Below, in pieces: positions 4,405 through 58,718 of a stretch of DNA of 64,000 nucleotides. The DNA is from Flavobacterium soyangense. Its GTDB lineage: Bacteria; Bacteroidota; Bacteroidia; Flavobacteriales; Flavobacteriaceae. The position numbers were made by a program, and so were the translations under genes. The notes below the pieces were generated by a model. That model worked only from the letters and a program-made list of their open reading frames with translations, made no database searches and had not been told where the DNA came from. The DNA lies in contig NZ_JADHEC010000016.1 in assembly GCF_015277675.1 (NCBI RefSeq), positions 1 to 64,000 on the forward strand, read 5' to 3'. Position 1 is the stretch's first letter. Every line of letters starts with the position of its first letter.

Positions 4405-4835
4405 AAAACGAAAACAAAATTAAAATTTTCCTGGTTGATGACGATGCCTTCTATCTAAAATCATTAGAAATAGAATTTCTGGAACATGCCGATTTTATAA
4501 TTGAAACGTATCCTACAGGAGAACTTTGCTTGAAAAATCTATCCCATAATCCGGATATAATTGTATTGGATTATCATCTTGATGGGATTGATAAAACAGC
4601 AATGAATGGACTGGAAACCTTGGATGAAATAAAGGCTGTTAATCCGGATATTCCAGTTATAATGTTGTCTTCGCAGGACAAGATTGATGTGGCAATTAAG
4701 TGTATGCACCACAGAGCTTTTGATTATGTGGTCAAAAGCGAAACCGCTTTTATGCGTTTGCAAAAAATCATCACAACTATTTTCAGCTACAAAAAAATGG
4801 AAAAAGAATTAAGCTGGTATATGGACAGAATGTAA
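4401..4835 (+). CDS. Single-domain response regulator
   Basis: This is a CheY-like receiver of 144 residues. The acidic pocket (VDDD), the phospho-acceptor Asp in IIVLDYHLDG and the conserved Lys in YVVKSE are all present. There is no DNA-binding output domain, so it probably passes phosphate on or acts by protein contact. It starts with GTG overlapping the kinase stop (GTGA), which indicates translational coupling and a shared job with the hybrid kinase. The C-terminal 20 residues are helical and basic/acidic and could bind a partner. Confidence 0.88.
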   Translation: MKNENKIKIFLVDDDAFYLKSLEIEFLEHADFIIETYPTGELCLKNLSHNPDIIVLDYHLDGIDKTAMNGLETLDEIKAVNPDIPVIMLSSQDKIDVAIKCMHHRAFDYVVKSETAFMRLQKIITTIFSYKKMEKELSWYMDRM

Positions 4836-5362
4836 TCATTCCGGTCTTATTCTACCTCATTGTTTAATCTGTTTTCTTCCCTACTAATGTGCAATTTTTA
4901 TAGAAGATTGCACCATTTTTATGATAGCATCTGATTTTTAATACCAAATCAGAACTCTTTTTTTCTTATTGTAAAATGTGTGAATGATGTAACTTATTCT
5001 AAAAATTATGTAAGCCTTTCTTTCCTAAATCCGGTCATATTTGTAATGTCCTGAAAATTCATTCATGGCAAAAAATAAAAAGAAATGGAAGACATAACAA
5101 TCCTTATGGCATCAACCTAACCGCAGAATGCTATTACAAAAAATCAAACACTGAATATTGATTTAGAAAGTCTTGAAGTTACCCGCAAAGATTCAGTGAT
5201 TCCGTATTATGCAAGCGTAAAATCAAATAGAAGAGGATTATTACGATAAAGTTCGCGGATGTTCTTTAAAAGCTCAGGAAAATATTTTTTTTTGATAATC
5301 GGGCCTATCAGAAAAACTAATAAAATGACATCCAGAAAATCACATTATGATATCGAAATAAA
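4836..5362. other. Intergenic stretch with stress-type promoter and decayed coding remnants
   Basis: No intact gene is seen in these 527 bp. A copy of the 42-bp stress element and a -7-like box lie at 4972-5044. Downstream, both forward frames around 5085-5250 have short protein-like stretches (for example NIDLESLEVTRKDSVIPYY) broken by stops, which suggests a small decayed gene. The family could not be recognised. The surviving promoter may now serve the membrane protein at 5363. Confidence 0.5.
4972..5044 (+). promoter_or_regulatory. Stress-cluster element copy 1 and -7 box
   Basis: This site has the element TAAAATGTGTGAATGATGTA, continuing as ACTT..TTCT.AAAATTATGTAA, and then CATATTTGT at 5036-5044. 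From the T of TGTGAAT to the G of TTTG there are 58 bases, as in copies 2 and 3. It probably combines an activator site with a Bacteroidota -7 box. Confidence 0.65.
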
Positions 5363-5767
5363 ATGAGAAAAATACAAAAGATATACAGCTCCACCGAGAA
5401 AATTTTTGAAAGACTCGTTTCTTCGGTCACCTCCATTCTTGGTAACTCCATCACTTTTATTCTGGCTTTTTGTCTAGTGTTATTCTGGTGGACCAATAAT
5501 CTGTTTACCACTCGGGATGTTCATCAAATAATTGGGGACATCATTTTTGGAACAACATTTTTGAGTTTGTTTATCATTCAAAAATCATTCAACCGATTTT
5601 CAGGCTCTTTGCATTTAAAAGTTAATGAACTGGTTTCCTCGCACGAACCAGCCAATAATTCAGTTATAAATGCTGAAGAAAAAACAGAACGAGAAATAAC
5701 GGAACTTTCTAAAGAGTATGCTGAACTGGCTGAACAAGTCAGGGAACTTGAGGAAGGAAATACTTAA
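5363..5767 (+). CDS. Low-affinity iron permease (Fet4-like) family membrane protein
   Basis: This is a small inner-membrane protein of 134 residues. Two hydrophobic segments (about 27-45 and 58-76, FGTTFLSLFIIQKSFNR) match the Fet4-like family seen in bacteria, followed by a charged, Glu-rich coiled-coil tail (about 100-134). The family name comes from yeast iron permease; transport by the short bacterial members is not established. It lies in a group of stress-type small genes. The promoter may be the shared element about 320-390 bp upstream, across a decayed stretch. Confidence 0.75.
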   Translation: MRKIQKIYSSTEKIFERLVSSVTSILGNSITFILAFCLVLFWWTNNLFTTRDVHQIIGDIIFGTTFLSLFIIQKSFNRFSGSLHLKVNELVSSHEPANNSVINAEEKTEREITELSKEYAELAEQVRELEEGNT

Positions 5768-5844
5768 AATTAATTTTATTCACAAGGTTAAATTCGATCT
5801 GTAATTTCTGTAAATCCAATGCAGCGTTATTGTCGAATTTCTTC

Positions 5845-5917
5845 TAAAATGTGTGAATATTATAACTTCTTCTTAAAATTATATAACATTTTAAGGCTGT
5901 AAAGAAACCACCTTTGT
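5845..5917 (+). promoter_or_regulatory. Stress-cluster element copy 2 and -7 box
   Basis: TAAAATGTGTGAAT is followed by ATAACTT and AAAATTATATAAC, then CACCTTTGT with the final TTTG at 5913-5916. TGTGAAT ends 58 bases before that G. It lies 39 bp upstream of the CsbD start and is the best placed of the three copies. Confidence 0.75.
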
Positions 5918-5955
5918 ATCGTTGTGAAAATGAATTTACATCTAAATTAAATACG

Positions 5956-6141
5956 ATGAACACCACAGAACTAAAGGGGGATTGGGAACAGCAAAAGGGT
6001 AAACTAAAACAAAAATTTGCCGCTTTAACTGATAATGATTTGCTATTTGTAAAAGGCAAAAAAGAGGAAATGCTAGGGAAACTTCAAACGAAACTAGGTA
6101 AAACCAAAGAGGAATTATTCAAAATTATTGGACAACTATAA
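5956..6141 (+). CDS. CsbD family stress protein
   Basis: This is a 61-residue hydrophilic, Lys/Glu-rich protein with the CsbD pattern: LKGDWEQQKGKLKQKF, then TDNDL, KGKKEEMLGKLQ and a short Leu-rich end. CsbD-type proteins are induced by general stress in many bacteria; their biochemical role is unknown. ATG 5956 is chosen over an earlier in-frame start because the family begins just before the GxWxxxKG motif and the promoter lies at 5845-5917. A decayed paralogue follows at 6896. Confidence 0.9.
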   Translation: MNTTELKGDWEQQKGKLKQKFAALTDNDLLFVKGKKEEMLGKLQTKLGKTKEELFKIIGQL

Positions 6142-6783: not shown

Positions 6784-6855
6784 TAAAAGTGTGAATTTTG
6801 TAATTTTTATTTAAAATCATATAAAACAATGTAATTCAGTTATTTGCATCTTTGT
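6784..6855 (+). promoter_or_regulatory. Stress-cluster element copy 3 and -7 box
   Basis: TAAAAGTGTGAAT is followed by TGTAATTT and AAAATCATATAAA, then CATCTTTGT with TTTG at 6851-6854. The spacing from TGTGAAT to TTTG is again 58. It lies 41 bp before the start of the decayed CsbD paralogue. Confidence 0.7.
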
Positions 6856-6895
6856 ATTGTTAAGAAAAAGTATTCTAAACATAATATAATTAAAA

Positions 6896-7079
6896 ATGGA
6901 CACTACAAATTTGAATGGTAGCTGCGAAGTACAAAAGAGTATACTGAAACAAAAATTTGCTGCTTTGACTGAGAATGATTTGCTATTTGAAGATGGCAAA
7001 AAAGAAGAAATAATTGAAAAAATTTAAATGCAATTGGGTAAAACCAAAGAGGAATTAAATAAAAATAATTGGAGACTAG
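6896..7079 (+). pseudogene. Decayed CsbD paralogue
   Basis: Translation from ATG 6896 gives MDTTNLNGSCEVQKSILKQK and then a FAALTENDLLF segment that matches the intact CsbD at 5956. A TAA at 7025-7027 interrupts it where the intact copy has LQTKLGK. The reading frame then resumes with MQLGKTKEEL, and one extra A near 7062 shifts the frame before the final IIG.. residues. The GDW/KG core is also altered. It is a recent duplication whose promoter copy is still intact. Confidence 0.85.
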
Positions 7080-7152
7080 ATATTACGTTTGTCAAAAACA
7101 GCAAAGAGAAACGTTTTATCAATCAGTGAATTATACAAATCTCAACAATAAA

Positions 7153-7189
7153 TGTGTAACATATCAAGTTTATATATTTTGCATCTTTA
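7153..7189 (+). promoter_or_regulatory. Possible partial stress-type promoter
   Basis: TGTGTAAC at 7153-7160 is followed by CATCTTTA at 7182-7189. The AAC-to-box spacing equals that of ATATAAC to CACCTTTG in the csbD promoter. The distal TAAAATGTGTGAAT half seen in the other copies is absent. It lies 28 bp before the gene at 7217. Confidence 0.4.
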
Positions 7190-7216
7190 CACTATAAATA
7201 ATTAAAACTAAAAAAC

Positions 7217-7534
7217 ATGAAAAAATTACCTCTTTATTTAATGATAATGGTATTGTCATTAAGTATTTTCCCTTCGACAATTAATGCTGCAGAAAAAAAT
7301 CCAACAGCTATTACTGCAAATACAAAAGAAATTCCAGCAGAAGTAACAGTAATGTATAATCGTCTGGAGGAAATAAAAGCAATGGATAAGTCTTCGATGA
7401 ATTTTTCAGAAAAAAAAGCACTTCGTAAAGAAGTACGTGCAATCAATGCTACTTTAAGATCATCAAATAACGGAGTTTATCTATCAGTTGGTGCCATTAT
7501 CATCATCATCCTTCTATTAATTCTTCTTTTGTAA
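7217..7534 (+). CDS. Small exported protein with C-terminal membrane anchor
   Basis: This 105-residue protein is not assigned to a named family. It has a signal peptide (cleavage after INAA), a helical charged middle (YNRLEEIKAMD, FSEKKALRKEVRAIN) and a C-terminal stretch of nearly pure Ile/Leu (about 90-105) that should be a membrane helix. The layout suggests a periplasmic helix tethered to the inner membrane. It sits in the stress cluster and is followed by its own terminator. Confidence 0.75.
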   Translation: MKKLPLYLMIMVLSLSIFPSTINAAEKNPTAITANTKEIPAEVTVMYNRLEEIKAMDKSSMNFSEKKALRKEVRAINATLRSSNNGVYLSVGAIIIIILLLILLL

Positions 7535-7549
7535 TTAATTAAAAAAACG

Positions 7550-7600
7550 AAAAGTCAATTAATTGTTAAAACTATGTTTTTGGAACAATTCTTGACTTTT
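7550..7600 (+). terminator. Rho-independent terminator
   Basis: AAAAGTCAA and ATTGTT pair with AACAAT and TTGACTTTT across a loop of about 16 bases, ending in a T-rich tract. It closes the 7217 transcript. Confidence 0.65.
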
Positions 7601-7641
7601 ATAAAAAATATTGAAATGATTTAATATAAAATACAAAAAAA

Positions 7642-8151
7642 ATGAAAACTTTAAAATTAATTACCCTAGGAATAATGATGTTTTTCGCATCGAGTTCGAT
7701 GCACTCACAAGTTTCAATAAGTGTCAATTTAGGATTGCAACCTTCTTGGGGGCCAGTAGGCTATTCTTCAGTAAACTATTATTATCTTCCAGATATTCAA
7801 GCTTATTATGATATACAGGCTTCTCAGTTTATTTATATCAGTGGAGGGACCTGGATTCGATCAAGATATTTACCAAGACAATATAGGAACTATGATTTAG
7901 ACAGAGGCTATAAAGTCGTCTTGAATGATTACCACGGTTCAAGACCTTATTCTAATTACAGATATGATAGAGTAAAATATTACAAAGGATATAGCAGACC
8001 GCAAGAATCAATAGGTCATAGAGGTGAAAATCACGGAAATGGTGGAAACTATGAAAATCACGGGAATAATGGTAATAATAGAGGAAGAGGAAATGAAGGT
8101 CACGGAAATGAAGGTCATGGAAATGGCGGACACGGACACGGAAAAAAATAA
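7642..8151 (+). CDS. Secreted protein with Gly/His/Asn-rich tail
   Basis: This is a 169-residue exported protein with a signal peptide (cleavage near SMHSQ). A Tyr-rich middle region (YYYLPDIQAYYDIQ and SGGTWIRSRYLP) is followed by a low-complexity tail of about 35 residues made of HGN, GGN and GHGH units. The His-rich tail could bind metal ions, which is inference. Similar short Tyr-rich proteins occur in flavobacteria with no known function. A strong terminator follows. Confidence 0.75.
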   Translation: MKTLKLITLGIMMFFASSSMHSQVSISVNLGLQPSWGPVGYSSVNYYYLPDIQAYYDIQASQFIYISGGTWIRSRYLPRQYRNYDLDRGYKVVLNDYHGSRPYSNYRYDRVKYYKGYSRPQESIGHRGENHGNGGNYENHGNNGNNRGRGNEGHGNEGHGNGGHGHGKK

Positions 8152-8199
8152 TTTCCAGTTTTTATAATATAGAATGAGATTTTCTAAACACACATAAAT

Positions 8200-8235
8200 A
8201 ATATCGGGAATTTAAAAACCCGATATTTTTTTTTA
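8200..8235 (+). terminator. Rho-independent terminator
   Basis: AATATCGGG pairs perfectly with CCCGATATT across a ten-base loop and is followed by a run of nine T. Confidence 0.85.
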
Positions 8236-8485
8236 TACTTTTTAAGGGATAAAGTAACTATTAATCTATTTTACTGTATTTGCAAAAACATGGTTGTGTG
8301 ATTTATAAGAAAAAAATTAAGCGTTCTTGTATCTGTCATTTTCGGCTAATCGATTTTCTGAATGAAGAGGTTAAATTTCGCAAAATCAAAAGTTAGCTGT
8401 AATTAGAAAAATTGAATATTTAAGTTCAATAATCCGCCAATTTTGACTTATTTTTGTACCGTTTAAAATATATAAGAAACTTTCT
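8236..8485 (+). promoter_or_regulatory. trxB upstream region with -7 box
   Basis: These 250 AT-rich bases hold no gene. A consensus -7 box TATTTTTG lies at 8449-8456, 30 bp before the trxB ATG. No clear -33 TTG was found at the usual spacing. Confidence 0.45.
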
Positions 8486-18984: not shown

Positions 18985-19113
18985 AGCCATTTCCCGCTAT
19001 GCGTTACAATCCACGCCCAAAAGCCTGGGATTTCCACTGCTATCGGGGCTCAGGGAATCCTGTTATAAATAAACTTGTGAACTTTGTGAAAAACTTTGCA
19101 AACTTTGCGGTAA
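18985..19113. repeat. Intergenic repeat region with CTTTGCGG block
   Basis: A GC-richer block (TTTCCCGCTATGCGTTAC, GGGATTTCCACTGC) at about 18985-19055 looks like a dispersed intergenic repeat. It is followed at 19072-19113 by AACTTTG copies that end CTTTGCGGTAAAA just before the NtrC-like gene. A reverse copy of the second block lies at 39508-39553. Confidence 0.6.
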
Positions 19114-31049: not shown

Positions 31050-31378
31050 TTAATTTTGATACGCTCCAGAAGAGTAGGTTAATTCGTAGCTGTGTGTATA
31101 AATCTCGAACACTATTCCAAATGGGTCTTCAACATAAACCATTTTATGGTTTTTTCATTGGGATAATATTCTCTTATTGGCATACATTGTTTTTCCTACG
31201 TATTCAACAATTTTATTTGTCAATTCTTCAATATTTGGGTCTTGAACACAAAAGTGGAAAAGTACTGTATTGAAGGGTTAAATTCTAGTGCTTCTTTAAT
31301 TCCATTAGGAAAGGAAAACAGCTCAATTCCTATTCCATCCGATGTTGACATATGGGCAATTTCAAAATTCTGGAATTC
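31050..31378 (-). pseudogene. Glyoxalase/VOC-family gene, truncated and frameshifted
   Basis: On the minus strand three frames read in turn EFQNFEIAHMSTSD and IGIELFSFPNG, then FNTVLFHFCVQDPNIEEL, then MPIREYYPNE, and finally KMVYVEDPFGIVFEIYTHSY. This is the end of a VOC (glyoxalase/bleomycin resistance) domain with at least three frameshifts. The N-terminal half is absent because the upstream side is replaced by the cassette repeat at 31375. The enzyme is dead. Confidence 0.82.
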
Positions 31379-31512
31379 TCTCTCAAAACTTTACGATAAC
31401 TCCATAGTGTTAATGGCAGGTACTCTGGATCCTGTCCTGGGTTTGTCGAAGGGTTCAACACGGGTTTGTTTCATTAAAGCAACAAAACTCTGGCTGTTGT
31501 TCGGTTTTATTT
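31375..31512 (-). repeat. Cassette-end repeat copy A
   Basis: The block 31375-31425 is identical to 32783-32833 at 49 of 51 positions. A variable central part follows, and then a conserved GCTGTTGT at 31493-31500, 29 bp beyond the stop of the DJ-1 gene. The middle holds a CCTGGG..CGAAGGG hairpin-like segment. It is in the same orientation as copy B, 1408 bp away. Confidence 0.85.
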
Positions 31513-31528
31513 TTAGTTTTTTTCTAAA

Positions 31529-32335
31529 TTATTTTTTATTTACAATTAAGCCTTGTTCAGGAATCCATTTATCATATTCGATAATTTTGGCGATTTTTTT
31601 AGCAAATTCTTCGCCTTTTATTTTAGCGACAAAATGTAATGCTCCGTCAATTCCAGCCGAAATTCCGGCAGTTGTAATTACATTTCCATTATCTACAAAA
31701 CGTACATTTGGTAATACTTTGGTTGTTGGCAATGCTTTTTGAAGTGCTTCAATTTGGCTATGAAAAGTTGTTGCAGTAAGGTTGTCTAATATCCCTGCTT
31801 TTCCCATGATAAATGCGCCTGTACAAACTGATATAAAGTAGTCAGTATTTTTTTTACGAGATTTTATCCACGAAATCACGGCTGGGTCATTTGTAGGGGT
31901 ACTGTGACTGCCTCCAAAGAAAACCATAACATCTGACTTCGGTGCGTCTTGGATGCTGTATTCTGGGATTATTGTTAACACTCCTTGGGAAGTAATTCTG
32001 TCTTTTGTTTTTGACACCGTAAACACTTTAAATCCTGCAGCGGTAAATACTTCCATTGGTCCCGCAAAATCTAATAACTCGACATTATCCTGCAAATAAA
32101 AACAGATTGTTAAATCCTTTTTGTTTGCATTTTTTTTAGTTCCTAAACTTGTTTTAGGGATCAATTTCATATCACAATACGGACAGATTCCTTCTTTTTC
32201 ATAAGTTATACTATCATAACTTTCGCCACAAGGTGGACAAACGAAAATTTGTTTTTCTTTTTGAATATTTCCATGACCTATTGATTTATTACAACCAATC
32301 AATGTAATAAAAGCAATTAAAATTATTTTTCTCAT
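31529..32335 (-). CDS. DJ-1/PfpI-family lipoprotein with heavy-metal-binding domain
   Basis: This is a 268-residue exported lipoprotein. The lipobox is LITLIGC (Cys near 15), followed by a heavy-metal-binding domain of the CPPCG..ICPYCDMKLI form (about 34-62), and then a DJ-1/PfpI domain with the nucleophile Cys in ISVCTGAFIMG (about 165). A glutamate in the first loop is in NVELLDFAGPMEVF. This combination is not the usual cytosolic AraC-linked GlxA. It may handle metals or aldehydes in the periplasm, which is inference. It is flanked by cassette-type repeats. Confidence 0.82.
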   Translation of the reverse strand: MRKIILIAFITLIGCNKSIGHGNIQKEKQIFVCPPCGESYDSITYEKEGICPYCDMKLIPKTSLGTKKNANKKDLTICFYLQDNVELLDFAGPMEVFTAAGFKVFTVSKTKDRITSQGVLTIIPEYSIQDAPKSDVMVFFGGSHSTPTNDPAVISWIKSRKKNTDYFISVCTGAFIMGKAGILDNLTATTFHSQIEALQKALPTTKVLPNVRFVDNGNVITTAGISAGIDGALHFVAKIKGEEFAKKIAKIIEYDKWIPEQGLIVNKK

Positions 32336-32782
32336 TTTCTTTATTTTTGCTGTCGCTCGAAACTAACACGCAACATTTCGTCACCTTGTGTTTGTTGCGG
32401 TTTTTTAAGACCAATTTTTTTACGAATATACACAAAACCTTAATTAATCAGTGTGGTTTAAGAAAAATACCTAAACCGGCTATATTGTCAAACAACTGTT
32501 GATCTAAACCTTCGGTAGCAATCGATTTGAGAAACTACAAGTAAAAGTACAGAGAAACCCTTTCTTCCTAAATGTCCTTGTTGCAAAAACAGATAATTTG
32601 CATCGAATAGCTTTTTTTGACCACCGTGGTTTTCCTGCTTGGTATCTTGGCGGTAGCCAAAAATCCATTCCCTGTAAAAGCTAAATTATGGGTAAGGGCA
32701 AGTATGACCCAAAAGTGACCGAAGACACTATAAAATGACCTTCAAATTGTTCCAAAAAAAGAGGACTATAAATCCTCTTACT
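32336..32782. other. Non-coding or decayed stretch inside the island
   Basis: No intact gene is seen in these 447 bp. The minus strand has broken protein-like pieces, one reading FLKSIATEGLDQQLFDNIAG and ending LGIFLKPH before a stop, which I cannot assign. A CTAAC core lies at 32363-32367, just upstream of the DJ-1 start. Confidence 0.45.
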
Positions 32783-32907
32783 ATTCTCTCTCAAAACTTT
32801 ACGATAACTCCATAGTGTTGACGGCAGGTACTCCGGTTCCGTTCAACCGGAGTTTCATTGTTCGTGCTGCGCACGCAACGAAACTCTAGCTGTTGTAGGC
32901 TGTGCTT
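32783..32907 (-). repeat. Cassette-end repeat copy B with two hairpins
   Basis: This copy keeps perfect arms. One is CTCCGGTT-6-AACCGGAG at 32831-32852. The other is GAGTTTC..GAAACTC at 32850-32886, with inner TTG/CAA and CGTG/CACG pairs. The conserved GCTGTTGT lies at 32889-32896, 16 bp beyond the stop of the 161-aa gene. The whole is GC-richer than its surroundings. Confidence 0.87.
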
Positions 32908-32911
32908 TTAT

Positions 32912-33397
32912 TTAGTCTTGATGTCCATAATTTAATTCTTCATTTTTATCCCAAAACAACATAAAAAGCTCTGCAGAAGTTCCTTTTTTGCTTGTCCAGT
33001 CTGCAACAATCTTAATGGCAATCTCTAAATCGTCCATATAAGCCATTCTACCATCACTACCTCTAATTCCCTTTTCATCTTTTTTGGCTCCTCGATTTAT
33101 AAGAATATTTTTTTCATCATATATGATTCTTCTAACATCTTCAAATTCTTTACCTTTTGGTAAATTATCTTTTAAAAGTTTAGTTAATCCATTGTAATAA
33201 AGCTGAAATTTAGTCACAGGGTCATCAATTTTTTGCCCTAATAATTTTTCAGCTTCGTTTTCTATTGCTAATTCAGAATCCATATTTAAGACTAACTGTT
33301 CGCCTTTAATTTCTTCGGATTTTTGGAGTAACTCTAATCTCTCAATGTCTTCTTTGGAGAGATTTCTTTCTATAATTTTCTTTTTATTTTCTTTCAT
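32912..33397 (-). CDS. Hypothetical protein coupled to the XRE/ImmA gene
   Basis: This 161-residue protein is highly charged, helical in its first half (KENKKKIIERNLSKEDIERLELLQ) and matches no family I recognise. It starts 6 bp after the XRE/ImmA gene stops, so they are very probably translated together and functionally linked. It could be the partner of the metallopeptidase (for example a substrate or toxin). That is inference from context. A cassette-type hairpin repeat follows its stop. Confidence 0.72.
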   Translation of the reverse strand: MKENKKKIIERNLSKEDIERLELLQKSEEIKGEQLVLNMDSELAIENEAEKLLGQKIDDPVTKFQLYYNGLTKLLKDNLPKGKEFEDVRRIIYDEKNILINRGAKKDEKGIRGSDGRMAYMDDLEIAIKIVADWTSKKGTSAELFMLFWDKNEELNYGHQD

Positions 33398-33403
33398 TTT
33401 CGA

Positions 33404-34582
33404 TTATGATACTGTTAATAATTCTCTTATTTTTAATGATGTTTCTTTTATTGATTCAACGTTCCAATTTGCGATATTTAAGTTTTTAGTTACAATTGAA
33501 ATGTTTGGAAATTGGTCTTTAAAAGCTCCCCAATAATCATTGCCAATTTCAGATTGTCTCCATTGAAATTGCGAATAAATTATTGAAGGATGAATTTGAC
33601 AATCATTGGCTAATTTTGTAACAACAACTTTATTATGAATTAACTTCTCAATATATCTCATTTTTTCACTAGAAAATAAATATTCAGAAGCAAATTCATT
33701 AGCTCGGTCTTCCTGAATTAAAAATAAATCTGGTTCACCTGATAAATGATAACTAGTTTTTTCAATAATTTCTAAATCATAAAGTACGTGATGTAATTCG
33801 TGAATTAATGAAAACCAAATTGTTGCATAATTTTTATTAAAATCAGTTATTACAATACAAGGTTTGTTGTTTACAATAAATGTTGCACCTCTAATTTGAG
33901 TTTTAGGTAAAGATGGTTGAAACACAATTGTAATTCCTATATTGTATAGGGCTTGAAAAACTGTTTTTAAACCATTTTCAATATTTTTTGTATAAGGTTT
34001 AATTTTAGGAATCAGTTCAATTAAACTTTTTCTGTCGAATTCGTTTGGATTATTTACAGATTCAAAGTATTTGTAACTGGATTTTATCCAAAAATCTTTC
34101 ATTTTATCGCTGAAAGTTTTTTTTGTTCTACTGTATAATGCTTCATTTAACTGAATATCATAATCATAAATTGATTCAATTTCAAAAAAACGACAGATTC
34201 TCTCTTTTAATTGTTCTATGCTGTCATTTCTGCCGATAAAGCCTAAACTAGTTAATGTTTTTATATCGAAAAACTTATTTATAAATGTAATATCCATAGA
34301 GTCTTGTAACTCTTTTATTTCTTCTACAGGTCTTTCGTTGAAGTGTAATATTAATAAATCTTCAAGACTTATTTCTAGAAACTCTCCAAGTTTTACTAAT
34401 TTCGCTATATCAGTTTGTTTTGAAGTTTTATTTAAAATTGAATCTAGACTTTTTCTCTCCATTCCAGCCAATTTTTCAAATTGAGTTTTACTTAAACCAG
34501 ATTGCTCTAATTTAAATTGAAACAATTCTTCTAATGAATTTCCAGAATATTCAAGACTTTTATTTAAAATATTATTTATCAT
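33404..34582 (-). CDS. XRE-family regulator fused to ImmA/IrrE metallopeptidase
   Basis: This is a 392-residue cytoplasmic protein. The N-terminal 80 residues form an XRE helix-turn-helix (LSKTQFEKLAGMERKSLDSIL). The C-terminal half is an ImmA/IrrE (COG2856) zinc peptidase with HELHH near residue 260 (WFSLIHELHHVLYDL) and the downstream Glu in EDRANEFASEYL. Such proteins repress by binding DNA and are lifted or act through peptidase cleavage, in mobile elements and toxin-antitoxin modules. Two palindromic operators lie upstream. Confidence 0.9.
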   Translation of the reverse strand: MINNILNKSLEYSGNSLEELFQFKLEQSGLSKTQFEKLAGMERKSLDSILNKTSKQTDIAKLVKLGEFLEISLEDLLILHFNERPVEEIKELQDSMDITFINKFFDIKTLTSLGFIGRNDSIEQLKERICRFFEIESIYDYDIQLNEALYSRTKKTFSDKMKDFWIKSSYKYFESVNNPNEFDRKSLIELIPKIKPYTKNIENGLKTVFQALYNIGITIVFQPSLPKTQIRGATFIVNNKPCIVITDFNKNYATIWFSLIHELHHVLYDLEIIEKTSYHLSGEPDLFLIQEDRANEFASEYLFSSEKMRYIEKLIHNKVVVTKLANDCQIHPSIIYSQFQWRQSEIGNDYWGAFKDQFPNISIVTKNLNIANWNVESIKETSLKIRELLTVS

Positions 34583-34688: not shown

Positions 34689-34697
34689 GCCACTAAC
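34689..34697 (-). promoter_or_regulatory. Junction core GTTAGTGGC
   Basis: On the minus strand the sequence reads GAGTTAGTGGCAATGC. The same GTTAGTGGCAAT lies at 58711-58722. It may mark the 5' edge of the first island gene. Confidence 0.5.
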
Positions 34698-34703
34698 TCG
34701 TTT

Positions 34704-34738
34704 ATATACTCAGTTTTTAATCCAAAAACTGAGTATAT
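34704..34738. repeat. Perfect 15-bp inverted repeat
   Basis: ATATACTCAGTTTTT pairs with AAAAACTGAGTATAT around AATCC, between the recombinase end and the XRE/ImmA upstream region. A second small palindrome, CTCAACT-AG-AGTTGAG, lies at 34761-34776. They may be a terminator for the recombinase or part of a recombination site. Confidence 0.75.
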
Positions 34739-34784
34739 CTTACTTTTTTTGGACGCTTTGCTCAACTAGAGTTGAGGTTTATTT

Positions 34785-35828
34785 TTATAAATCATCAAAA
34801 GGCGATTTAATGTTTTGTATGCTTTTTGTGCTTACGTGGGTATGTATTTCAGTTGTTTTACTACTGTTGTGGCCTAATAATTCCTGTATGTATCTTAAAT
34901 CTGTTCCGTTTTCCAGTAAATGAGTGGCGTAACTATGCTGCAGCCAATGCAAACTTACGGGTTTATTAATTCCTGCCAATCTAATACTTTTTTTTAAAAC
35001 TTCTTCTAAACTTCTGTCAGAATATTTTGTATTTCCTTGTTGTCCTTCAAAAAGCCATTTCTTGGGCTTATAGCTTTTATAATATTCTCTCAGTATTTCT
35101 ATTATCTTGTCACTTAGAGACACGATTCTATCCTTTTTTCCTTTTGATTGTTTAATGATTAACAATTTTCTATCGCTTTGAATATCACCAAAAGTAAGAT
35201 TCAATAATTCGCTTCGTCGCAATCCACAGGCATAAATTAAACTCAACATGGCTTTGTGTTTAACATTAGTCAATGCTCCTAAAATAGCCTTTATTTCTTC
35301 TTTGCTCAACACATTGGGCAATGGTTTAGATCGTTTTGGTCGGTGTATTTTATCTATTTCAATCTTTGTTGCTCTTCCTGTTGCGAAAAACAATTTGATA
35401 GCATTAACGATTTGGTTTTGGTACGAGGCTGATAGATAGTTCTTTAAAATAAATTCGTTATTGTAGATAATCACATCTTCATTGGTAATTTCAGCAATGG
35501 ATTTATCACGATAGAAAATTAGGAATGATTTCAAAGCTTCGCTATATGTTTTTAGAGTGCTTTCGCTATACCGTTTGGAACGCAGCCATTGCTTGAATTT
35601 TTCGATTTGTTCCATTCCTTCAACCGAAGGCAACGAGTGGGAGTGGGGCGATAAGTTGAATCGTTCCCTGTTTTCCTGCGTGTCCGGAAGGTGCCAAGCC
35701 ATCAGCGATTGACTCCATCTAGCCCCATCAAATTTTTTAATTCGGACGATTAATTCGGCATTTTTATCGAAATAAACTGCGATTCTTTTGCTGCCTTTAT
35801 GCGTGATGATTTTGGAGCTCCAGTTCAT
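34785..35828 (-). CDS. Tyrosine recombinase lacking two catalytic residues
   Basis: This 347-residue protein has the Xer/integron-integrase layout: an N-terminal extension (about 1-75), a SAM-like core-binding domain (about 76-160), and a catalytic domain. Box I is intact (CGLRRSELLNL, Arg near 204), Lys lies in SKGKKDR, and the second box reads HWLQHSYATHLL: HxxR is HxxQ (Q297). The nucleophile site in KTTEIHTHVS has His329 instead of Tyr. Both changes are single transitions (CGG to CAG and TAT to CAT). It ends KSPFDDL, as in integron-type and flavobacterial recombinases. The catalytic steps should fail, although DNA binding may persist. Confidence 0.88.
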   Translation of the reverse strand: MNWSSKIITHKGSKRIAVYFDKNAELIVRIKKFDGARWSQSLMAWHLPDTQENRERFNLSPHSHSLPSVEGMEQIEKFKQWLRSKRYSESTLKTYSEALKSFLIFYRDKSIAEITNEDVIIYNNEFILKNYLSASYQNQIVNAIKLFFATGRATKIEIDKIHRPKRSKPLPNVLSKEEIKAILGALTNVKHKAMLSLIYACGLRRSELLNLTFGDIQSDRKLLIIKQSKGKKDRIVSLSDKIIEILREYYKSYKPKKWLFEGQQGNTKYSDRSLEEVLKKSIRLAGINKPVSLHWLQHSYATHLLENGTDLRYIQELLGHNSSKTTEIHTHVSTKSIQNIKSPFDDL

Positions 35829-56505: not shown

Positions 56506-56706
56506 ATGAAGGAATCAATAAAACGACTTGAATTTTTATGTAAAACAGTACCCTCTTTATTAGAAAACATAGAAGAGGAAATATTTTCATATAAACCAGA
56601 AATAGAGAAATGGAGCAAGAAGCAAATCCTAGGGCATTTGATTGACAGCGAATGGGAATCAGCAAGACAAAAAATTAGTAATCAAATAAATGATAAAGCC
56701 TTATGA
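56506..56706 (+). CDS. Chimera: DinB N-terminus joined to GNAT C-terminal tail
   Basis: This 66-residue reading frame begins like a DinB protein (RLEFLCKTVPSLLENIEEEI, then KWSKKQILGHLID) but ends DSEWESARQKISNQINDKAL. The ending matches the C-terminus of the next gene (DSEWEDVKQSIKTQIEIKA) rather than any DinB protein. It appears to result from a deletion between a DinB gene and a GNAT gene joined at a shared GACAGCGAATGGGA-like sequence. It overlaps the next gene by ATGA and is probably non-functional. Confidence 0.75.
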   Translation: MKESIKRLEFLCKTVPSLLENIEEEIFSYKPEIEKWSKKQILGHLIDSEWESARQKISNQINDKAL

Positions 56707-57311
56707 AGGACAATTGGATTAATCACCCTATAGTATTAAAAGGAGATAAAATAGAGCTCCTACCTTTAGAAAAAGAACATTTGGAAGATTTATTTCGTGC
56801 GGCATCCAATAAAGAAATATGGGAACTAACATCTGTAGACTACTCAGTTGAAGAAATATTTTATCCTAATTTCAACAACGCAATAAATGACAGAGAAAAA
56901 GGAACAGTGTATCCCTTCGTTATTGTTCACAAAGATTCCAACAAAATTATTGGAACTACCAGATTTCTTGAAATATATCCGAATGACAAAAAAATAGAAA
57001 TTGGTGTTACTTGGATTATGAAAGAATATTGGGGGACAACTGTAAACCTAGAATGCAAATTACTATTGCTCAATTATTGTTTCGAAAATTTAAAAACCAA
57101 TAGAGTTCAATTTAGAGCAAAAGAGAACAATGCACGTTCAAGAAAAGCAATTCAAAAAATTGGCGGAATATTTGAAGGGGTTTTAAGAAAAGATAAAATC
57201 GAACCAAATGGAATTCCGAGAAATACCGCTTTTTATAGTATTTTGGATAGTGAATGGGAAGATGTAAAACAAAGTATTAAAACCCAAATAGAGATAAAAG
57301 CCAACCGCTAA
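56703..57311 (+). CDS. GNAT N-acetyltransferase (RimJ/RimL type)
   Basis: This 202-residue protein has the RimJ/RimL layout: LLPLEKEHLEDLFRAAS, then IGVTWIMKEYWGTTVN with a variant of the acetyl-CoA loop, and QFRAKENNARSRKAIQKIGG then FEGVLRKD. It could acetylate ribosomal proteins or small amines. Its stop codon is part of the CCGCTAA core of the following repeat. It overlaps the chimera upstream by ATGA. Confidence 0.87.
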   Translation: MKDNWINHPIVLKGDKIELLPLEKEHLEDLFRAASNKEIWELTSVDYSVEEIFYPNFNNAINDREKGTVYPFVIVHKDSNKIIGTTRFLEIYPNDKKIEIGVTWIMKEYWGTTVNLECKLLLLNYCFENLKTNRVQFRAKENNARSRKAIQKIGGIFEGVLRKDKIEPNGIPRNTAFYSILDSEWEDVKQSIKTQIEIKANR

Positions 57312-57410
57312 GCGCTGTTTTGAAATAGGACAGGTTTAGGCTTAATTTAAAGTTGATTTAATACTTGTGAATTGAGTGATTAACTGAAGGTTTAGACTTT
57401 CTTAATCGTA
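57305..57410 (+). repeat. Junction repeat copy 1 (CCGCTAAG core)
   Basis: The core CCGCTAAG supplies the GNAT stop codon (TAA at 57309-57311). GGTTTAGGCTTAATTTAAAG and about 60 more bases follow, which match 58504-58584 at about three quarters of positions by eye. It lies between the GNAT and SnoaL-like genes. Confidence 0.75.
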
Positions 57411-57508
57411 CAAAATACAAAACCAAAATTTTTATCGAAAACATCCCCGCTTGTTCAGAGTGATACAAATTACGTAAATAGTAAATTCATAAATTAAAAA
57501 AACATAAA

Positions 57509-57856
57509 ATGACAATAGAACAAATTGTAGAGAAACAGATGCGTGCTTATGAAGAGAGAGATATTGATAGTATGATGGCTGTTTTTAGTAAAGAAATTAA
57601 AGTTGTTGACTTTTCAAACAATAAAACAATTATTGAAGGTATAAACGATTGTCGAAAAATGTACGCTGAACTTTTCTTGAATTCACCTAATCTTCGAGCT
57701 GAAATAGTAAAGACTATTACTTTTGATAATAAAGTTATTGTGCAGGAATATATTCATGGACGTAATGGGAGTGTTGAAAAAATCGAGCAAGTAGTTATTT
57801 TTGAAATAAATGACGAAAAAATAAGCAGGATAAATATGATGAAAAAATACACGTAA
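57509..57856 (+). CDS. SnoaL-like/NTF2-like protein
   Basis: This 115-residue protein has the small cone-shaped NTF2 fold pattern: an N-terminal helix (EQIVEKQMRAYEERDIDSMM), then VFSKEIKVVD strands, and YIHGRNGSVEKIEQVVIFE near the end. Such proteins act as isomerases, hydrolases or ligand binders; the role here is unknown. It is flanked by repeats. Confidence 0.82.
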   Translation: MTIEQIVEKQMRAYEERDIDSMMAVFSKEIKVVDFSNNKTIIEGINDCRKMYAELFLNSPNLRAEIVKTITFDNKVIVQEYIHGRNGSVEKIEQVVIFEINDEKISRINMMKKYT

Positions 57857-57984
57857 ACTGTTTTTTAAATGGATAAAAAAGGACAAAGAAAAAGTACTTC
57901 TTGTATCGATGAGGTAGTGGTCATTGTAACGCACGACACCGAAACAACAAAATCAAAATTACAATAAACAGATAAAATCGGAAT

Positions 57985-58455
57985 ATGACACAAAACGAAA
58001 TAATAATTCTAAACTTTGAAGAAATCAGAAGAAGAAGTATAAAACTTTGGACAGGAATTACACCAGAAAATTATTTTTGGCGACCAGACATTAATGCAAT
58101 GAATTGTCTTGAAATGATAAGACACATTTTAGAAGGCGAACACTTATTTCATATGATAGTGAATAAGAGAGGAAATTTAGGCGACTATGTTTCACCTTGG
58201 ACAAACAGACCATATACTGATTTACAGGCAGAACTTAACTTTGCAGAACCTTTTAGAATGGCTTTTTTAGAAACAATAAAAGAATTCAGTCCAAACGACT
58301 TTTCAACAATTCAAATTATTCGTTCAGAAAAAGGACAACGCAGACGACTTGGAGATTATTTACAACGAATTGCATATCACGAAGCAGTTCATACAGGACA
58401 AATGCTTTCATATTTGCGGACACTTGGACTTGAAAGACCTCAAATATGGGACTAG
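57985..58455 (+). CDS. DinB family protein
   Basis: This 156-residue four-helix bundle has DinB metal residues: MIRHILEGEHLFH (His) and RIAYHEAVHTGQMLSYLR (two His). It is complete. It is flanked by junction repeats (57305 and 58478), so it may be a movable unit with its NTF2-like neighbour. Confidence 0.87.
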   Translation: MTQNEIIILNFEEIRRRSIKLWTGITPENYFWRPDINAMNCLEMIRHILEGEHLFHMIVNKRGNLGDYVSPWTNRPYTDLQAELNFAEPFRMAFLETIKEFSPNDFSTIQIIRSEKGQRRRLGDYLQRIAYHEAVHTGQMLSYLRTLGLERPQIWD

Positions 58456-58477
58456 CAAACGGACAAAAAAAAACGAA

Positions 58478-58718
58478 CCACTAACCGTCGTTTGTCAATA
58501 TATCGGGTTTAGAGCTTAATTTAAAGATGGTTTTGTACTTGTAAAATTAGTCATTAACCGAAAGCCTAGACTTACTTAATCCGCCACATCACCAAACGGC
58601 AAACTGTCTAAAAACCTAAATTAAAGCTCTGAGGATTCCATATTTGAGATTTTTCAATGACAGGAGTCCGAATACAAAACGTAAAAACGAAGGTTATTAG
58701 ACAGACTGACGTTAGTGG
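58478..58718 (+). repeat. Junction repeat copy 2 bounded by CCACTAAC and GTTAGTGG
   Basis: CCACTAAC at 58478-58485 and GTTAGTGG at 58711-58718 are inverted copies. The first part (58504-58584) matches the repeat at 57332-57410. An inner pair CTGTCTAAAAACCT (58604-58617) and AGGTTATTAGACAG (58691-58704) can fold with one mismatch. The whole resembles a recombination site that acts as a folded strand. Confidence 0.75.

Follow-up and report, generated by a model that had tools for sequence, protein, structure and literature searches.

A probable decayed copy of an integron-type cassette platform headed by a Xer-like recombinase in Flavobacterium soyangense

The stretch of Flavobacterium soyangense DNA analysed here (64,000 nucleotides of contig NZ_JADHEC010000016.1, referred to as the window) very probably contains an integron-type cassette platform, headed by a Xer-like recombinase, in decayed form. 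The array is small and decayed, and belongs to a family of cassette arrays that is common in this bacterial group. On the basis of sequence comparisons, we read this family as a candidate integron-type cassette system of Bacteroidota that has gone unrecognised and the activity of which we infer. The features of the window are reported in Table 1. The order of genes on the minus strand, from the recombinase through the XRE/ImmA pair to the DJ-1 lipoprotein gene, is that described in an earlier reading of the sequence alone. That reading proposed an unrecognised Bacteroidota cassette family on the evidence of two repeats, A and B. The proposal of a family is well supported, near a recombinase that is not IntI, but the two repeats do not serve as evidence for it, as they are 3' ends of IS91-family elements.

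Table 1 Features of the window, ordered by position.
Feature	Position	Strand	Evidence or score
Repeat A, IS91-family 3' end fragment	31375..31496	+	Comparison with repeat B and IS copies
Second cassette, DJ-1/PfpI lipoprotein with heavy-metal-binding domain	31529..32335	-	Pfam
attC-like site of the first cassette, degenerate and interrupted by the IS	32368..32504	-	16.8 bits, E 0.3
IS91-family element, internally deleted, 394 bp, both termini recognisable	32499..32892	+	5' terminus matches intact G139 copies
Repeat B, IS91-family 3' terminal hairpin; its end is the G^TT of the invaded site	32783..32896	+	
First cassette, gene 2, partner ORF, 161 aa	32912..33397	-	Pfam search: no match
First cassette, gene 1, XRE/ImmA (HTH_26 + Peptidase_M78)	33404..34582	-	Pfam
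attI-like palindromic region, core ...TATAAACGAG^TTAGTGG, G at 34697	34697..34787	-	After recombinase stop
Head recombinase, 347 aa, Xer-like, ~70-aa N-terminal extension	34785..35828	-	Pfam PF00589
Weak attC-like site after gene 56703-57311	57306..57436	+	17.1 bits, E 0.26
Better preserved attC-like site after gene 57985-58455	58479..58612	+	58.9 bits, E 2.1e-10

Repeats A and B share, as had been claimed, a conserved block (31375-31432 and 32783-32840, 58 nt, 93% identity) and a common end, GCTGTTGT, located at 31493-31500 in repeat A and at 32889-32896 in repeat B. Both also end just after stop codons, 28 nt from the one at 31529 and 15 nt from the one at 32912, respectively. The strong foldback arms attributed to both were found in repeat B only, when folding was compared with shuffled sequence (z = -2.69, against z = -0.26 for repeat A). 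Canonical cores, which had been said to be absent, are indeed missing from the two repeats but are present, as YAAC...GTTR boxes, in the real cassette sites described below. The IS 5' terminus and antisense remnants of an IS91 transposase, overlooked in the sequence-only reading, adjoin repeat B (from 32497), which is therefore a transposon end. Also overlooked were the degenerate half-site at 32368-32504, the attI-like region with its core at 34697, and the attC-like sites at 57306-57436 and 58479-58612 (Table 1).

The genome to which the window belongs carries 14 copies of the repeat, A and B included, and in all of them the terminal GTT precedes A or G. In nine copies, an ORF of 50 codons or more has its stop codon 4-26 nt from the repeat end, and in 11 copies this distance is within 53 nt; this position near stop codons exceeds chance. 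Four copies found in contig C37 each follow an unrelated gene, in a single orientation. Antisense remnants of an IS91-family (Y2) transposase, one of which matches PF04986, are located on the inner side of repeat copies in this contig. The intact arrangement was identified in a relative genome, G139, where a tyrosine recombinase of 287-288 aa, a 387-aa transposase (NF033538, 440.7 bits) and then the repeat occur together six times. This identifies the repeat as the 3' end of an IS91-family element, the six intact copies featuring both the Y2 transposase and the 3' terminal end typical of the family, and repeats A and B are worn 3' ends of such an element, which rules them out as cassette sites. 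Like IS91 and ISCR, the element has an IS91-family transposase and a 3' hairpin; unlike them, it encodes a tyrosine recombinase as well and is located at the G^TT of cassette sites. In four contigs of the window's own genome (C50, C66, C27 and C6), the first ~117 bases are near-identical IS 3' ends, which suggests that an intact multi-copy element collapsed in assembly. No known RNA family was found at 31200-33000, where snoRNA scores were at chance level only, and scans of three array loci for RNA families gave one chance microRNA score.

The 5' ends of five of the six IS copies in G139 adjoin one half of a ~130-nt palindrome, an attC-like site, so the IS was the second to arrive. Whole copies of the palindrome are found after other genes. 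The half-site at 32368-32504 of the window is not significant alone, and its register is the same as that of the five G139 copies. In an alignment of 21 hand-picked palindromes set in gene direction, YAAC is located close to the stop codon of the gene and GT(T/C) at the opposite end. All 17 predicted stem pairs feature changes on both sides with pairing kept. With the outer box included, 87.1% of the cells are paired, compared with 64.6% in column-shuffled and 29-40% in slid alignments. The outer box alone is 71.4% paired, which we count against the cassette-system reading. R''/R' boxes, L boxes, a variable terminal loop and a structure kept under sequence change, all features of attC sites, are found in the palindromes, and the covariation of the stem is consistent with recombination of a single-stranded, folded site. 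Computed strand energies, taken as a lead only, indicate a more stable bottom strand in 123 of 150 sites and a more stable top strand in 25.

Alignment of 150 sites to the model revealed that stem position 22 is A in all sites and its partner, position 122, is C in 147; an A.C mismatch is invariant among covarying pairs. No conserved extrahelical (bulged) base was found on the R''-L'' arm, the arms measuring 20 + 20 nt in 141 of the 150 sites, a count biased toward symmetry because the alignment was fitted to a model of symmetric shape. The sites thus resemble integron attC in the YAAC/GTTR boxes, the covarying stem and the loop of variable sequence, but have the invariant A.C mismatch in place of a conserved extrahelical base.

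A covariance model of the sites matched 20 times in the window's own genome, at 19 places, one match being the reverse strand of another, and 309 times in 1.08 Mb of fetched loci, the site density of which differs from genome density because the loci were chosen for holding IS ends or sites. Sites lie on one strand per locus in the 38 fetched loci with at least three of them (277/277 sites). In strand and stop-codon counts, which used 300 of the 309 sites, an ORF stop on the same strand falls at -10 to 60 nt from 203 sites, compared with 28 for the opposite strand and with 106 of 1500 random places. The 97 sites that have no ORF stop in this interval count against the reading. The sequence-only reading had asked whether the repeats follow unrelated genes at a fixed distance from stop codons and near related recombinases; the outcome is favourable, but it concerns the attC-like sites and not repeats A and B.

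In many fetched loci, sites recur every 0.5-1 kb. The cassettes (n = 239) have a median length of 888 bp, and the longest ORF is on the strand of the site in 176 of them. In contrast, it is on the other strand in 43, and 20 have no ORF of 60 aa, both of which count against the reading. Eighty cassette proteins, out of 175 eligible ORFs, matched 49 Pfam families, most of those listed just once, and 25 PADLOC families. YoeB, Gp49-like, HepT, PIN and the integron-associated Cass2 are among the Pfam families. Since toxin-antitoxin and candidate anti-phage genes are found among the cassettes, new defence systems may be sought in the arrays. In locus L070 (G112), the same 512-aa ORF, transposase-like by eye, occurs twice in neighbouring cassettes (4424-5962 and 6797-8335), beside attC-like sites.

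Sites are widespread. Among 249 genomes sampled from the genus of the window, at least 209 carry one or more (E<=1e-6). At the same threshold, at least 116 of 345 genomes sampled across the phylum carry a site, in at least 61 of 154 genera; 97 of these genomes lie outside the genus, at least 14 of them with five sites or more. All site counts are floors, because scoring was limited to 13 candidates per genome in the genus and to 10 in the phylum. The recombinase search across the phylum (E<=1e-50) gave matches in 106 of the 345 genomes, and the weaker matches may correspond to recombinases of other types. Pairs in which a site lies downstream of a recombinase on the same strand were found outside the genus, as in G513 C23, G298 C1, G342 C115, G543 C8, G503 C97 and G438 C19. 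Seven loci related to the window were found in named genomes, and three of them (L158, L159 and L164) hold sites; L159, from Flavobacterium aquidurense DSM 18293, encodes an intact head recombinase.

The recombinase found at the head of arrays is Xer-like, is usually 345-350 aa long, and lies on the same strand as the sites. In all 15 fetched loci holding both, the sites are downstream only. In contrast, IS-borne recombinases lie on the strand opposite to the sites (11/11). Eighteen of 31 recombinase loci, with flanks of up to 1.5 kb, contain a site, always downstream and on the same strand, although two are weak. Relatives of the window recombinase (E<=1e-60) were identified in 125 of 249 genus genomes, with up to three copies per genome. 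At least five sites, the counts being floors, are present in 88 of the 125 genomes with the recombinase and in 50 of the 124 without it (Fisher p 2e-6). The link between recombinase and sites is therefore strong yet incomplete, and both the 50 site-rich genomes that lack the recombinase at this threshold and the 37 that carry it with fewer sites count against the reading. Divergent recombinase forms of ~590 aa account for some of the former. Two long head recombinases, L168:4648-6402 and L189:5597-7369, have 584 and 590 aa, compared with the usual 347. Neither type of recombinase is found in 22 fetched loci with at least three sites, which is also counted against the reading; many of these loci are pieces of longer arrays or contigs. 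In this respect they resemble CALINs, clusters of attC sites without an integrase, but the site model and the recombinase of the family differ from those of integrons.

By sequence, the nearest solved structures are XerC-like 4a8e (6e-38), XerA 5hxy and then IntI4 2a3v (2.4e-30). The sequence-only reading, which had picked the right gene as recombinase, stated correctly that the integron-integrase insert is absent, as 20 residues of the head recombinase face 62 of IntI4 at this position. The predicted structure (pLDDT 79.1, pTM 0.52) features no extra helix there, and XerA and IntI4 rank first in a Foldseek search with it. None of ten genomes has a match over the cut-off of TIGR02249 (IntI), and matches are split at the insert; two head recombinases score 193-200 bits, the cut-off being 265. 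NF040815 ("site-specific tyrosine recombinase/integron integrase", cut-off 220) is matched by an intact homologue from the window's own genome (225.1) and falls just short in the window copy (217.1). We take NF040815 to be a family name rather than a prior description of such arrays. In a tree, 19 head recombinases are set apart from two others. The recombinase alignment includes 25 of 31 proteins (L206, L214, L217, L225, L230 and L233 were omitted); the L217 and L233 recombinases contain a stop.

The window copy is predicted to be inactive, because its second catalytic Arg is replaced by Gln and its catalytic Tyr by His. HxxR and Tyr are kept in all 30 relatives compared. The intact homologue, in contig C66, heads a four-site array. 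The sites of the window are themselves weak, with the exception of that at 58479-58612, which counts against the reading. A second small group of likely cassettes (56703-58612, genes 56703-57311, 57509-57856 and 57985-58455) lies on the plus strand, opposite to the array at 31-36 kb.

A palindromic region follows the stop codon of the recombinase. By eye, GTT is found at its core in 27 of 30 relatives, and sequences differ beyond it. All seven predicted pairs covary in an alignment of the window and 26 of 29 listed relatives (L026, L212 and L232 were omitted), the arms differing between genomes yet remaining complementary. The attI sites of known integrons are not known to have variable but complementary palindrome arms of this kind. 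We call the region attI-like, as it would correspond, being conserved, placed beside the recombinase and changing after GTT, to the attI adjacent to integron integrases; the joining of cassettes there is putative.

Cassette boundaries were analysed by comparing all cassettes with each other, with flanks of up to 600 nt, and keeping pairs in which each side had 200 nt of flank or more. Among the 32 non-trivial homologous pairs, homology ends at the cores on both sides (within 20 and 30 nt) in 12, and its 3' end lies within 30 nt of the core in 28. In nine pairs, homology starts 70-150 nt upstream, inside a similar preceding site. The 20 pairs in which homology does not end at both cores count against the reading. 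Among the nine pairs listed letter by letter, the change occurs at AAC|GTT on the 5' side in eight; on the 3' side, it occurs at GTT in four and 14 nt further in one, and the end sites themselves have diverged in the other four. For instance, a 744-bp cassette is shared at 96.8% identity by contig C66 of the window's own genome and G142. A change at AAC|GTT would fit site-specific recombination at G^TT, and not homologous recombination between dissimilar sites, and cassettes thus appear to be exchanged as units at G^TT, as in integrons. In G045 (C1:194000-233999, loci L182 and L183), cassettes of 647, 715, 732 and 754 bp are each present in two to three near-identical copies at distinct positions within one array, as though recently duplicated.

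Taken together, these comparisons would fit the following scheme. A Xer-like tyrosine recombinase heads the array, and its stop codon is followed by an attI-like site, the core of which is G^TT. Cassettes come next on the same strand, each closing in a folded attC-like site (R''-L'' ... L'-R'), the symmetric stem of which contains a single, invariant A.C mismatch. Most likely, either strand of a cassette site, possibly the bottom one, would fold into a hairpin, and the head recombinase, acting on this single-stranded substrate, would join the G^TT of the hairpin to the core of attI or of a further cassette site. Cassettes starting with GTT and ending with AAC would be gained, lost and copied as units. 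The IS91-family element, which has its own tyrosine recombinase, inserts into such sites at the G^TT adjacent to the stop codon of the gene.

Arrays might recombine by means of the host XerCD or of the IS-borne recombinase, the head recombinase being a passenger. At the threshold applied, the head recombinase is missing from many site-bearing genomes, and the IS does carry a related enzyme. The invariable position and strand of the head recombinase in the 15 loci, the attI-like site directly after it, and the opposite strand of all 11 IS-borne recombinases make this unlikely. A canonical integron, the IntI of which was missed or resides elsewhere in the genome, is very unlikely. Site architecture and layout are integron-like, the NF040815 cut-off is exceeded by the intact homologue, and canonical integrons are known from a few Bacteroidota (PMC9024848, PMC8618304). 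However, the TIGR02249 searches of ten genomes led us to reject a canonical IntI, and both the 20 residues found in place of 62 and the lack of a conserved bulged base in the sites argue against this reading.

Less likely again is a history similar to that of ISCR elements, in which IS91 elements mobilised adjacent genes through one-ended transposition and left a 3' end behind after each gene, with no cassette system involved. The identity of the repeats and the alternation of six intact copies with genes in G139 are in keeping with it. In contrast, folded sites form arrays without IS, cassettes change at AAC|GTT where IS are absent, and the G139 copies that abut folded sites at the 5' end mark the IS as the later arrival. 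We regard it as extremely improbable that a REP transposase spread the sites, as REP-like palindromes or terminators, between immobile genes. Sites do follow stop codons, and a REP-like transposase is encoded in the window's own genome, but genes and sites move as units, sites keep to one strand along arrays, and the recombinase and attI-like site mark one array end. REP elements are palindromes that move without genes; here, cassette genes move along with the sites. In contig C2 of the same genome, a transposase that we presume to be REP-associated (L017:3605-4204) lies ~500 bp from an IS 3' end.

The preferred reading, a cassette platform served by its head recombinase, has its closest parallel in sedentary chromosomal integrons. 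Both feature a head recombinase, an adjacent attachment site, a one-strand array of single-gene cassettes with a site after each stop codon, exchange at G^TT, and toxin-antitoxin and Cass2 genes among the cassettes. They differ in that the recombinase described here has an N-terminal extension, is devoid of the IntI insert (I2) and is oriented in the same direction as the cassettes, and in that the attI-like site is palindromic. The arrays would therefore be integron-like in working, yet they lack two features that define integrons, the IntI insert and the extrahelical bases. XerA, XerC and XerD are nearest to the head recombinase by sequence (4a8e, 5hxy) and fold. The integration of CTX phage is described as taking place at a folded site in the absence of both I2 and extrahelical bases (PMC4792948). 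The present arrays differ from Xer recombinases and CTX phage in having a dedicated recombinase at their heads, in up to three copies per genome.

The I2 domain and extrahelical bases are described as co-evolved, and Escudero et al. present the joint origin of I2 and attC sites as a chicken-and-egg paradox (PMC4792948). The insert is reported to be essential for integron function and "not fully conserved" in an integron-like subgroup (PMC8138268). Integron surveys identify integrases by this extra domain (PMC9024848, PMC2426708), and the 2022 survey (PMC9024848) reports a single complete integron, that of Salinibacter, for Bacteroidetes proper. We found no description of such arrays in the open-licence literature, preprints excluded. 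Probably, the arrays represent a second kind of integron, Bacteroidota-wide, in which a Xer-like recombinase without I2 would act on attC-like sites without extrahelical bases, using the A.C mismatch and perhaps the N-terminal extension and a folded attI. Such a system would be either the ancestral state of integrons or an independent invention of the same logic. If the reading is correct, a large gene-exchange platform has been overlooked in a major phylum, and a cassette system working without I2 or extrahelical bases would make the question of the origin of I2 and attC directly testable.

Elsewhere in the window, a Flavo-1 RNA (RF01705) was identified at 18986-19054 on the minus strand (50.2 bits, gathering 42).
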